Below are positions 22,607 to 26,169 of a stretch of 64,000 nt of DNA, in pieces (the first letter of the stretch is position 1; every line of letters starts with the position of its first letter). The position numbers and the translations under genes are program-made. The DNA is taken from contig NZ_LNQB01000073.1 in the NCBI RefSeq assembly GCF_001651875.1, positions 310,001 through 374,000 on the forward strand, written 5' to 3'. The notes under the pieces are model-generated. The model ran no database searches, had not been told where the DNA came from, and saw only the letters and a program-made list of their open reading frames with translations. Source of the stretch: Sinorhizobium saheli (GTDB lineage Bacteria > Pseudomonadota > Alphaproteobacteria > Rhizobiales > Rhizobiaceae).

Positions 22607-23701
22607 TCACGCCTCGATCTGAACGTCGTTCATCGGCCGCGAACAGCAGGCGAGGATGTAGCCCTCCGCGATCTCGTCATCGAGGATGCCGCCATTGTGG
22701 TTCATCTCGACGTCGCCGGCGACCTTCATTACCCGGCAGGTGCCGCAAATGCCGCCCTCGCAGGCGGCGCCGATGCGGACGCCGTTGGCGCGCGCCGTCT
22801 GCAGGATCGTCTGGCCGGGAACCGCAGTCACTTCCTTGCCGCTCATGGTGAAGGTGACCCTTGCCGCACCGGCCTCGGCGCCCGCGGCCGGCCCGGCGCG
22901 GACCGCCAGTTCCTCGGCCGCGGGTGCCGCCGCCGGCTGGAAGCTCTCCTGATGATAGCGCGCCATGTCGAACCCGGCCGCCTCCAGCATCTCGCGCACA
23001 CCGCGCATGAAAGGCTCGGGACCGCAGCAGAAGACCGTTCGCTCCAGGAAATCCGGCGCCAGCAGCGGTAGCTTCGTCGCGTCGATCCGCCCGCGCAGGC
23101 CGTGCCAGCCGTGGCGCGCCTCGTGCCCCTCGACGAGGAAGCCGAGATGGAGCCGCGGCATCTGGCGGGCGAGAACTTCGAGTTCCGGCTTGAACAGAAG
23201 ATCCTCCGGCCGCCTTGCACAGGAGATGAAGGTGACGTCCGTGTCCGGCGCGCAGTCGGCCATCCAGCGCGTCATCGACATCATCGGCGTGATGCCGGAA
23301 CCGGCCGAGACGAAGAGGTATTTCTCGCCGGGATGGCGGACGAAGCTGAAGTCGCCGAGCGGCCCGAGCGCCTTCAGCACCATCCCCGGCTTCAGATTGT
23401 CGAACATCCAGCGCGTGCCGATGCTGCCCGGCTGCGCCTTGACGGTCACGGCGACCGAAAGCGGGCGCGAGGGCGAGGACGACAGCGTGTAGGTCCGCAT
23501 CACCGGCTCCTCGCCGACGGGCAGTTCGAGCGTCACGAACTGCCCGGGCAGATAGCGGAACCAGGCCGGCTTGTCGGAGCGGAAGGTGAAGGTCATCACA
23601 TCCGCGGTCTCGGCGACCGCCGAAATGCACTCGAGCAGGTGCTGGCGGTCTCTCCATGGCTGGAGCTCATCGAAGTGCTGGAAGGAGCGTGCCATTTCCA
23701 T
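22607..23701 (-). CDS. gbcB: Ferredoxin-NAD(P)H reductase partner of the Rieske oxygenase (GbcB type)
   Basis: A 364-aa electron-transfer component of a two-part Rieske oxygenase. The FAD domain carries RTYTLSSSPS, the NAD domain VSAGSGITPMMSM and CCGPEPFM, and the C-terminal plant-type [2Fe-2S] domain CEGGICGTC with the fourth Cys near ILACCSRP. It passes electrons from NAD(P)H to GbcA. The start at 23701 lies 3 nt after the gbcA stop, so the two are one operon behind the cobalamin riboswitch. Closely related pairs demethylate glycine betaine, stachydrine or carnitine; glycine betaine is the best guess. Confidence 0.88.
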   Translation of the reverse strand: MEMARSFQHFDELQPWRDRQHLLECISAVAETADVMTFTFRSDKPAWFRYLPGQFVTLELPVGEEPVMRTYTLSSSPSRPLSVAVTVKAQPGSIGTRWMFDNLKPGMVLKALGPLGDFSFVRHPGEKYLFVSAGSGITPMMSMTRWMADCAPDTDVTFISCARRPEDLLFKPELEVLARQMPRLHLGFLVEGHEARHGWHGLRGRIDATKLPLLAPDFLERTVFCCGPEPFMRGVREMLEAAGFDMARYHQESFQPAAAPAAEELAVRAGPAAGAEAGAARVTFTMSGKEVTAVPGQTILQTARANGVRIGAACEGGICGTCRVMKVAGDVEMNHNGGILDDEIAEGYILACCSRPMNDVQIEA

Positions 23702-23704
23702 GGG

Positions 23705-24949
23705 TCAAGCCACCCGCGACAGACGGGTGGCGCCACCCTGAAGACGATCCAGCATGAAGCTCGAATACCACTCGACGAACTGCATCACGCCGCCCTCGTG
23801 CTCGGCCGAATAGGGGCCCGGCTCATAGGCCGGCGAGCGGATGCCGAAGGCGTTCTCCTCGACGATCTGCCGGTCCTGGTCGTTGGTCTCCGTCCAGACA
23901 TGGGTCAGTTCCTCGAGCGTGTAGTCGACGCCCTCGACCGCATCCTTGTTGACGAGCCACTTGGTGGTGACCTGCGTCAGCTCCGGTCCGAGCGGCAGCA
24001 CGCGGAAGGTGATCGCGTGATCGCCGAGGATATGGTTCCAGGTGGTCGGATAATGGAAGAGAAGCAGCGTGCCGATGCCGCCGGCGTTCACCGCGGCGGA
24101 GAGTTGCCGGCGCACGGCCTTCTCGCCCGACATCGTATAGCTCTCGGCGCCGTTGATCAGCGGCATTCTCGTCATGCGGAACTGGCCGGCCGGGCCGATC
24201 CTGAAGGCGCTCGGCAGGCCCGCCGCCTCGCATTTCGCCCAATGGGCGCCGATTTCCGGATCGTCCATCGCCCCCTTCACGCCCGTCACCGTCGGAGCCT
24301 CGGGATAGGTGCGGCAGAGCTCCGGATGGTTTGCGGCGCAGTGGTAGCACTCGCGGTTGTTTTCCCAGACGAGCTTCCAGTTGCCCTTCTCGACGATGGT
24401 GCTTTCGAAGGCGACCTTGGTTTCGCCGAGACGATGCGGCGCGAGATAGCCCGTCACCATGTCGCGGAACGGCCCAAAATCCATCGGCTGATCGGCAAGG
24501 CTGATGAAGATATAACCGCCGACCGTCTCGCAATGGACCGGCTTCAGGCTGTGCTCAGCGGGGTCGAAACCCTCCGGCATCTGCCGGGCGAAGAGCAGCC
24601 GGCCGTCCAGTTCGTAGGTCCACTGGTGATAGGGGCAGACGAGTTTGGCGGAAGAGCCCTTGTGCTGCGTGCAGACGCGCGAACCGCGGTGACGGCAGGA
24701 ATTGTGCAGCGCCCGGATCGTGCCCTGCCGGTCGCGCACGACGACGATCGGATAATCGCCGACCTGCACCGTGAAATAGTTTCCGGCCCGCGGGATTTCG
24801 CAGTCATGGCCGATGAAGAGCCAGTCCTTGTACCAGATATGCTCCAGATCCTGGCGGTAATAGTCCGGGTCCACGTAGAAGGCCCGGTCGAGACTGTAGC
24901 CTTCCCGGCGGTTCTGGAGCTTGCGCAGCATGTCGTTCTGAATATCCAT
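23705..24949 (-). CDS. gbcA: Rieske oxygenase, glycine betaine demethylase type (GbcA)
   Basis: The 414-aa catalytic subunit of a Rieske non-heme iron oxygenase. The Rieske cluster ligands are C85-x-H87 (NSCRHRGS) and C105-x2-H108 (CPYHQW). The mononuclear iron site is at H203 and H208 in NNRECYHCAANHPE. In the GbcA family it removes a methyl from glycine betaine as formaldehyde to give dimethylglycine. GAGGGACCAGGAC precedes ATG 24949. A cobalamin riboswitch lies 123 nt upstream on the same strand. Stachydrine or carnitine demethylase remain alternatives. Confidence 0.9.
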   Translation of the reverse strand: MDIQNDMLRKLQNRREGYSLDRAFYVDPDYYRQDLEHIWYKDWLFIGHDCEIPRAGNYFTVQVGDYPIVVVRDRQGTIRALHNSCRHRGSRVCTQHKGSSAKLVCPYHQWTYELDGRLLFARQMPEGFDPAEHSLKPVHCETVGGYIFISLADQPMDFGPFRDMVTGYLAPHRLGETKVAFESTIVEKGNWKLVWENNRECYHCAANHPELCRTYPEAPTVTGVKGAMDDPEIGAHWAKCEAAGLPSAFRIGPAGQFRMTRMPLINGAESYTMSGEKAVRRQLSAAVNAGGIGTLLLFHYPTTWNHILGDHAITFRVLPLGPELTQVTTKWLVNKDAVEGVDYTLEELTHVWTETNDQDRQIVEENAFGIRSPAYEPGPYSAEHEGGVMQFVEWYSSFMLDRLQGGATRLSRVA

Positions 24950-25071
24950 GTCCTGGTCCCTCGTTCACCCTTGTTTCGGAGGCAGGACAGGAACCCGCGC
25001 CGGCCAGAAAGCCGCGACGTCGATGGTCCCGATCCGGCTGCCCGCCGCAACCTTTACGGTCTATTTCTCGC

Positions 25072-25248
25072 GTCAAGGCTGGTTTCCGGGCTCTGGAGCC
25101 GTCCGCGAAGGACCCGCCCGGCGCCTTCCCGGACGGGACGTCCAGTGACTTTTTGCCGTGGCTTTGCTCCACCACCGTTGCGGGGGCAGCGCCGGGTTTT
25201 GACCGGCTTCCCAATTCTCCGCCTCGCTGAAAAGGCGGCACCTTGAGT
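25072..25248 (-). ncRNA. Cobalamin (AdoCbl) riboswitch upstream of gbcAB
   Basis: Read on the minus strand, the segment starts AAGGTGCC near 25245 and continues with AATTGGGAAGCCGGT, the AACCCGGCGCTGCCCCCGC stretch, AACGGT, AAGCCA, the AGTCACTG box and a GGGAAGGCGCCGGGC hairpin, ending GAGCCCGGAAACCAGCC near 25078. These are the conserved elements, in the right order and spacing, of the B12 riboswitch. The only gene in its path is gbcA, 123 nt further on. No clear terminator hairpin with U-tract is visible between them, so control may be at translation initiation. Confidence 0.93.
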
Positions 25249-25253
25249 GTCCG

Positions 25254-25281
25254 TATCTAAGCCTCGAGACTGCCCGAACAA
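25254..25281 (-). promoter_or_regulatory. Possible promoter of the riboswitch-gbcAB transcript
   Basis: On the minus strand TTGTTC (25281-25276), a 16-nt spacer and TAGATA (25259-25254) sit just 5' of the riboswitch, placing transcription start at about 25247, exactly where the riboswitch begins. Confidence 0.45.
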
Positions 25282-25569
25282 CTGCCGGTCTGCGACATTC
25301 GCTTCCAGAAAGACGACAGGGAATGCGCCGTGGAGAGGGCGCACGACGAAGCAAGATTATACATTGTAAACAATGCAATAGGAGAAAACTTGAGCAGTTG
25401 CTCATTTTTTCGTCAGCGCCATTCCCGACGCGAAGGCGCCTGACCATTTTGCGACATGGCATCCTAGGTCGCTCGGCCTCGGATGCGCGGCCAACAGTCT
25501 GTTAACCCTGATGATTTACCATCTTTCGACTGATCAACCGTTTGCGGGCAGGATGGGGCCGAGACGTCC
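25282..25569. other. Intergenic region between gbcAB riboswitch and the gene at 25570
   Basis: No gene seen. A perfect inverted repeat CATTGT-AA-ACAATG lies at 25362-25375, about 80 nt upstream of the putative gbcAB promoter, a candidate site for a betaine-responsive regulator or for the divergent gene. TGAGC and GCTCA (25391-25404) with a following T6 form a very small hairpin that could be a weak terminator on the plus strand. The region is more AT-rich than its surroundings. Confidence 0.4.
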
Positions 25570-26169
25570 ATGGCGAAGTTCCGATACTACGACGCTGCCG
25601 AAAGGGCTCCGGCCGAAGCGCCGAAAGCCGCGACCCATACCGAGTTCCTGCGGACCGGCCGCATCGACCGGCGTCGCCACTGGACGGCCGATGAGCGGCG
25701 CTACCTGAGCTATGCCGAGGTTGCCGAGCTTACGGGGCGGAAACTGACGGCCGCCGGCGAGACCACCTACCGGAGGATCAACGGCTTCCACACCTCGATC
25801 CAGTTTCCGAAGATGATCTTTCACCGCACGCTCGCCAAAAGCCCCCACCTCGGCTACTGCCACGTGACCGCCGCGAGGACGCACCTTGCAAGGGCGCACG
25901 AGATCACGTGGTCGTTCTATTTCGCGAATTTCTTCTCCGACCTCGGCAACGAGACGCATTTCTTCGATCGCATCCAGGCGGGATATTCCCGCATGTACTT
26001 CGCCGTCGCCATCGAGCCCGACGCCGAAGAAGGCCGGATCGTCATCAATCGCAACGTTCGCGGCAACGGGCTGATCTTCCGGACGCAGGATCCGAAGGTT
26101 GCGCTGAAGAATGTCCTGATGCTCGGCGCGCACGACGACGCGCTGCGCCGGATCATCCGCAGGCTCTGA
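25570..26169 (+). CDS. Uncharacterised rhizobial protein
   Basis: A 199-aa soluble protein, no signal peptide or membrane helix. I do not recognise its domain with certainty; it resembles proteins annotated only as DUF in Rhizobiaceae. It has a basic start (FLRTGRIDRRRHWTADER), a YLSYAEVAELTGRKL helix that hints at a small DNA- or protein-binding fold, and a Phe/Tyr-rich middle (ITWSFYFANFFSDLGNETHFF). Codon use is like its neighbours, and the frame has no internal lesion, so it is probably real. The ribosome site is weak (GGGGCCGAG). Function unknown. Confidence 0.75.
   Translation: MAKFRYYDAAERAPAEAPKAATHTEFLRTGRIDRRRHWTADERRYLSYAEVAELTGRKLTAAGETTYRRINGFHTSIQFPKMIFHRTLAKSPHLGYCHVTAARTHLARAHEITWSFYFANFFSDLGNETHFFDRIQAGYSRMYFAVAIEPDAEEGRIVINRNVRGNGLIFRTQDPKVALKNVLMLGAHDDALRRIIRRL

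Follow-up and report, generated by a model that had tools for sequence, protein, structure and literature searches.

Why does a vitamin B12 sensor stand before the gene for a catabolic Rieske oxygenase? The question is raised by a locus of Sinorhizobium saheli (contig NZ_LNQB01000073.1, positions 310,001 to 374,000, a stretch of 64,000 nucleotides that is called the window here), in which a cobalamin riboswitch of family RF00174 precedes the genes for an oxygenase and its reductase partner. Based on a comparison of this locus across genomes we consider it probable that an OFF-type B12 riboswitch governs a B12-independent stand-in demethylase whose corrinoid counterpart is encoded in the same cell, and an isozyme switch is the most likely description of the arrangement. 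Previously, a sequence-only reading of the locus had named the gene pair gbcAB and had proposed that it takes over from a corrinoid betaine demethylase when B12 is short.

The cobalamin riboswitch at this locus is real and conserved. RF00174 was the single RNA family above its gathering score in a cmscan of the window, and the match is full-length and on the strand of the oxygenase gene (Table 1), which bears out the earlier description of a complete riboswitch upstream of this gene. The position upstream also holds, but the spacing given for it, 123 nt, does not, as the distance from the aptamer end to the oxygenase start codon is 110 nt. In our judgement no credible gene was missed in between, since the open reading frames found there (e.g. 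24544-25050) share sequence with the oxygenase gene or with the aptamer and are read in different frames. The possible promoter of its own that had been assigned to the riboswitch was not recovered, as a sigma-70 consensus scan of 24800-25600 gave 0 sites, with a consensus that may not suit an alphaproteobacterium. No terminator-like site was listed on the minus strand from the aptamer to the oxygenase gene.

Conservation was determined in a family sample of 199 genomes, of which 97 held a homologue of the oxygenase at E 1e-60 or better; the 75 genomes with a best match of at least 54% identity were examined and the other 22 were excluded. Genomes without a listed RF00174 match were settled by match counts or by cmscan. 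An RF00174 match was located directly upstream of the oxygenase homologue in 49 of the 75 genomes, and by our own count the switch was retained in 31 of 45 genera. All 26 genomes without a switch at the oxygenase gene have between 1 and 6 RF00174 matches elsewhere; the loss is thus local to the oxygenase gene, and a general loss of B12 riboswitches is ruled out as its cause. Four of the switchless loci (L057, L058, L065, L113) showed no remnant of the switch, as even at E values up to 10 RF00174 had no match there. The 75 genomes also served to calibrate a motif search (47 of the 49 switches recovered, 0 false in the 26 others), which found the switch in 55 of the best 80 of 588 named loci, and cmscan of 25 of these 80 matched the motif call every time (11 with and 14 without).

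The closest among the listed named loci were those of Sinorhizobium medicae and an Ensifer strain, both 90% identical. Named holders of the switch comprise S. medicae, Ensifer adhaerens (L140), S. fredii, Shinella, Mesorhizobium loti and Pannonibacter, the last of which belongs to another family (Stappiaceae); Rhizobium leguminosarum and Agrobacterium carry no switch at the syntenic locus. The flanking genes for DUF6656, Sua5 and an acyl-CoA dehydrogenase are common to the loci of S. medicae, E. adhaerens, R. leguminosarum and Agrobacterium, and DUF6656 together with the other two was kept at 19 of the 49 loci with a switch and at 6 of the 26 without. In the window the divergent DUF6656 protein adjoins the switch (25570-26169, plus strand; PF20361, 279 bits). 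Three further loci, labelled Arenimonas (L164), Bacillus subtilis (L216) and Sphingomonas (L212), contain Rhizobiaceae-like genes of 66-72% identity and are possibly mislabelled or contaminated records.

The leader holds elements that we take to be those called L5, P13 and L13, and the complementarity of L5 and L13, combined with an expression platform that contains a P13 stem, is presumably a feature of cobalamin riboswitches, which is found here as well. The L5 motif GCTGC(C/G)CCCGCAAC was present in 47 of the 49 switch-bearing leaders, and the loop GCGGNGGG, which is complementary to this motif, followed the aptamer in 47 of the 49 leaders with a switch compared to 3 of the 26 without. The 4-bp P13 stem covaries: in these 47 leaders 183 of 188 pairs were standard, whereas 2000 shuffles gave 166.0 on average and 177 at most, and stem variants GG/CC and GA/TC were seen, although kinship among the sequences inflates a covariation test of this kind. 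For the Shine-Dalgarno region before the oxygenase gene the median accessibility was 0.27 in leaders with a switch (n=48) compared to 0.48 in those without (n=23; U-test p 0.009, the sequences being non-independent). In the window leader the start region is predicted to form a hairpin (Table 1), although the overall stability of the fold after the aptamer is ordinary in comparison to shuffled sequences (z -1.03 and z -1.62). The ribosome-binding site is thus hidden more often than in switchless relatives, as expected for an OFF switch, and the predicted architecture of the leader fits translational OFF control.

Table 1. Coordinates of the oxygenase locus in the window
Feature	Position	Strand	Basis
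Rieske oxygenase, GbcA/Stc2 superfamily, Stc2-side clade	23705..24949	-	Pfam Rieske and Ring_hydroxyl_A; NF058607 516.8 bits (cut-off 670); tree
Reductase partner, GbcB-like	22607..23701	-	Pfam FAD_binding_6, NAD_binding_1 and Fer2; NF058606 397.2 bits (cut-off 500)
Cobalamin riboswitch aptamer RF00174	25060..25260	-	106.4 bits (gathering score 31.5), E 1.2e-25, model 1-189 of 189
L5 region of the aptamer, RNA GCUGCCCCCGCAAC	25177..25190	-	Read from the sequence; likely kissing partner of L13
P13-L13 hairpin, RNA GGUU-GCGGCGGGC-AGCC, directly 3' of the aptamer, loop complementary to L5	25036..25052	-	
Predicted hairpin sequestering the oxygenase Shine-Dalgarno region	24950..24993	-	Minimum-energy and centroid folds of the window leader

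The oxygenase is likely a quaternary-amine N-demethylase, as judged from its domains and relatives. It combines the Rieske and catalytic alpha-subunit domains of the GbcA type with an adjoining GbcB-type reductase, whose reading frame follows that of the oxygenase after 3 nt on the same strand, and in domain architecture and two-gene order the pair is the same as GbcAB of Pseudomonas and Chromohalobacter. The superfamily and architecture behind the label gbcAB thus stood, but the names themselves did not, as both proteins score below the respective cut-offs. A quick tree built from 50 sequences, with long branches flagged, joined the orthologue clade (support 99) to the clade of Stc2 and 3N0Q (99) with an SH-aLRT of 91 for the join, which was unstarred. 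The 17 sequences above the GbcA cut-off formed a separate clade (99) with the window oxygenase outside it, and their identity to the latter is about 45-49%. The stachydrine demethylase Stc2 (3VCA) and 3N0Q are the closest solved relatives, with 216 of 387 residues (56%) and 226 of 386 residues identical, respectively. The oxygenase appears to form a distinct clade beside Stc2, sister to it rather than part of it, and three Stc2-side homologues lack the switch. As the oxygenase misses the GbcA cut-off and its clade stands beside Stc2, its substrate is putative, with glycine betaine as the most likely one and proline betaine as the next. By eye, the wider gene context of the switchless loci gave no clue to the substrate. 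No second full-length homologue of the oxygenase was found in the window's genome.

The proposed B12-dependent partner is the corrinoid betaine demethylase MtgBCD(E) as described in the available part of PMC12478193, and its components are encoded in the window's genome. One contig (C70) carries genes for MtgB, MtgC, MtgD and MtgE-like proteins and for a RACo-type corrinoid reactivase, with unrelated genes interspersed, and in addition cobQ and genes for an OpuAC binding protein, a ProV-type ATPase, a LysR regulator, DUF1638 and MTHFR. The MTTB protein is of the MtgB type and the pterin-binding protein of the MtgD type, and for the B12-binding protein the best model was MtgC. The homocysteine methyltransferase matched PRK07534 with 578.7 bits (cut-off 338), bears the NCBIfam name betaine-homocysteine S-methyltransferase and is of the MtgE or Bmt type. 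The earlier suggestion of betaine-fed methionine synthesis is thereby addressed in an indirect way. A B12-dependent counterpart is hence encoded in the same genome, identified by domains and context. The genome also has a full metH, and metE was not found in it.

The switch and the corrinoid system are present and absent together. MTTB was counted as PF06253 in the 75 genomes and MtgC-like proteins were read by eye from matches to the metH model. Both the switch and MTTB were found in 47 genomes and neither in 22, with 4 genomes having MTTB only and 2 the switch only, so that 69 of 75 agree; when the three Stc2-side genomes (G090, G002, G098) were excluded, 47 of 72 had both and 21 neither, with 2 and 2 mismatched. 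An MtgC-like protein was encoded in exactly the 51 genomes with MTTB, and in 50 of them within 8 kb of it. When mapped on the tree of the oxygenase, the switch requires 9 changes and MTTB 10. Across 7 starred independent pairs a mean of 5.7 differed in the same direction, 0 in the opposite direction and 1.3 not at all (median p 0.031). Similarly, among 50 of the 80 named genomes, which overlap partly with the set of 75, 29 had both and 19 neither, with L154 having MTTB only and L148 the switch only (48 of 50 agree); for the 125 genomes combined there were 8 pairs, with 6.3 in the same direction, 0 opposite and 1.7 without difference. As the switch is almost confined to species with a B12-dependent enzyme whose presumed role is the same, its probable function is to select between the B12-independent oxygenase and this B12-dependent counterpart. 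The earlier proposal that B12 shortage makes the oxygenase replace a corrinoid betaine demethylase thereby gains comparative support (47 both, 22 neither, 6 mismatched, and contrasts that are never opposite), with betaine as the presumed substrate and without the GbcA identity.

Several observations weigh against this reading. The oxygenase falls under the GbcA equivalog cut-off NF058607 (Table 1) and groups with Stc2. The names MtgB and MtgC were given from domains and context, with 208.7 of the required 370 bits for the MtgC model and 280.8 of 525 bits for TIGR02369. MTTB occurs without the switch in G174, G102, G090, G098 and L154, and the switch without MTTB in G094, G169 and L148. These last three hold the weakest switches (61.3, 56.3 and 57.9 bits, respectively). 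G094 and G169 have an open Shine-Dalgarno region, and in addition the former lacks the loop motif and the latter has a broken stem. This suggests that the switch is decaying in such genomes, although all three are also failures of the rule, and G061, which has both traits, lacks the loop motif as well. The p value of the sign test is only about 0.03 and the tree was built on the oxygenase, not on species. Genes for B12-independent enzymes (nrd, metE or core metE, or prpC) were found within about 7 kb in only 7 of the 49 loci with a switch and in 1 of the 26 without, and such clustering was rejected as a general proof. The gene of the B12-dependent MetH is nearby in 9 of the 49 switch loci and in 0 of the 26 others. 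Among the named loci, within 5 kb, any such neighbour was seen in only 3 of 55 with a switch and in 0 of 25 without. Clustering with genes for B12-independent enzymes is suggestive and not general.

For the isozyme switch we infer the direction of control and the chemistry of the oxygenase route as follows. The riboswitch would act on the translation of the stand-in oxygenase, and possibly on transcription too. With ample coenzyme B12 the aptamer would bind B12 and L5 would pair with L13, by which the ribosome-binding site would be kept hidden, and methyl groups of betaine would be removed by the corrinoid system of MtgB, MtgC and MtgD. When B12 or cobalt is scarce, the ribosome-binding site would open and the Rieske oxygenase and its reductase would be made, which would demethylate the same quaternary amine with O2 and NADH to formaldehyde and the dimethylated product. 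The logic would be the same as for metE and nrdAB under B12 riboswitches, where a switch of this class likewise precedes a substitute for a B12-dependent enzyme of the cell; the target here differs in being a catabolic Rieske demethylase.

A variant of this reading, which is possible if rather unlikely, keeps the switch and changes the substrate: the oxygenase would have proline betaine (stachydrine) or a different quaternary amine as its substrate, and the B12-dependent counterpart would be a paralogous MTTB protein instead of the betaine one. The place of its clade beside Stc2, with the unstarred SH-aLRT of 91, and the higher identity to Stc2 than to GbcA (56% compared to about 45-49%) agree with this, as does the number of MTTB genes, which reaches 8 per genome. 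However, the six genomes with a single MTTB gene (G047, G140, G117, G014, G187, G042) all bear the switch and have that gene near MtgC, which points to the betaine system. In addition, the MtgC-linked MTTB of the window's genome shares its contig with a betaine transporter of the OpuAC/ProV type and with MtgE, and the Stc2-side homologues in G090, G002 and G098 are without the switch.

Two explanations dispense with a choice between enzymes. We regard it as improbable that low B12 induces betaine breakdown for precursor supply, with glycine (for 5-aminolevulinate) and one-carbon units (for corrin methyl groups) serving B12 synthesis. Betaine feeding raises the B12 yield of industrial producers according to the available part of PMC8123684, and a strain of Ensifer adhaerens (locus L140) has the same arrangement, but the switch tracks MTTB and MtgC rather than cobQ: 18 of the 22 genomes with neither trait have cobQ and are thus apparent B12 makers that lost the switch, and 3 of the 47 genomes with both (G035, G177, G148) kept it with no cobQ match. 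B12 synthesis, as represented by cobQ, is therefore disfavoured as a correlate. The presence of metE was ruled out as another one, as a full metE was found in 11 of the 49 genomes with the switch compared to 3 of the 26 without (p 0.35). That the riboswitch is a vagrant or decayed bystander with no effect on the oxygenase gene would agree with the failure to find a consensus promoter by the sigma-70 scan and with the post-aptamer fold (z -1.03), and is very improbable in view of its retention across genera, its syntenic place in at least 19 of the 49 loci, the covarying hairpin of the expression platform, and its absence from MtgBC-less lineages that still have other B12 riboswitches.

The riboswitch itself has probably been listed before. 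A cobalamin riboswitch before S. meliloti SMc00982 was listed in 2007 and 2008 (PMC2245857, PMC2573895), and the gene was termed 'likely encoding a dioxygenase' (PMC2848018). As switch, annotation and the spacing to the divergent upstream gene (637 nt compared to 620 nt in the window) agree, SMc00982 is probably the counterpart of the window locus. The available parts of these listings give neither the function of the target nor a B12 logic, and we found no functional reading in print: in the available text of open-licence PMC papers no stated link of a B12 riboswitch to betaine demethylation or to a Rieske enzyme was found. A survey of cobalamin regulons names 'isozymes of B12-dependent enzymes' as a class (PMC3766115), and the words 'Betaine', 'Rieske', 'demethyl' and 'dioxygenase' are absent from its main text as available. 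The paper on MtgBCDE, which adjoins the cob operon in S. meliloti, links it in its available text neither to a riboswitch nor to an oxygenase that stands in for it within one cell, and the word 'riboswitch' occurs there once, in a reference title on glycine (PMC12478193). GbdR is the activator of gbcA and gbcB in P. aeruginosa, with riboswitches unmentioned in the available part of that source (PMC12093977).

If the isozyme switch is true, vitamin supply decides how rhizobia demethylate a plant-derived osmolyte: the corrinoid methyltransferase would retain the methyl group on folate and the oxygenase would release it as formaldehyde. A catabolic target would be added to the few B12-independent isozymes that B12 riboswitches control. 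Inconsistencies in betaine catabolism between Sinorhizobium studies have been described (Mausz 2025, as available in part), and such a choice may account for them; the joint losses of switch and corrinoid system offer ready natural contrasts. On balance we lean towards the broader view that osmolyte demethylation is a further step with a riboswitch-chosen B12-dependent or B12-independent enzyme, beside methionine synthase and ribonucleotide reductase, that the oxygenase represents a distinct Stc2-side clade, and that loss of MtgBC is followed by decay of the switch, which frees the oxygenase from B12 control.

The neighbourhood of the oxygenase gene varied. It lies beside metE and nrdAB or nrdEF in G035, G131 and G178; in G035 it stands between metE and nrdAB, and in G178 it follows nrdEF, metE, prpD, prpC and prpB. 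At the latter locus (L108, G178 C61:158600-178500) nrdEF, metE, a RamB-like regulator, prpD, prpC, prpB and the oxygenase and reductase pair share a single region, which also contains several B12 riboswitches. G157 has a second Rieske oxygenase, a distant one with about 33-35% identity (L255, C15:120000-131000). Its gene, C15:125924-127072(-), immediately precedes a B12 riboswitch and metE, and a close relative of it (L110:9393-10649) adjoins the switch-controlled gene and a core metE in G062.

The window's genome has five RF00174 matches above the cut-off and one below. By eye, those other than the match described here precede genes for a BtuF-like binding protein, BluB and CbtA, with the weak one near cobW. 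A 103-bit B12 riboswitch at L010:9808-10012(-) (G000 C57:21807-22011) has a Pycsar-effector-like protein upstream, and no family was found in the single downstream open reading frame scanned. An AraC/DJ-1-type regulator (L009:9070-10101, minus strand) is encoded directly upstream of the riboswitch and the BtuF-like gene; GbdR, the betaine regulator of Pseudomonas, belongs to the same general type.

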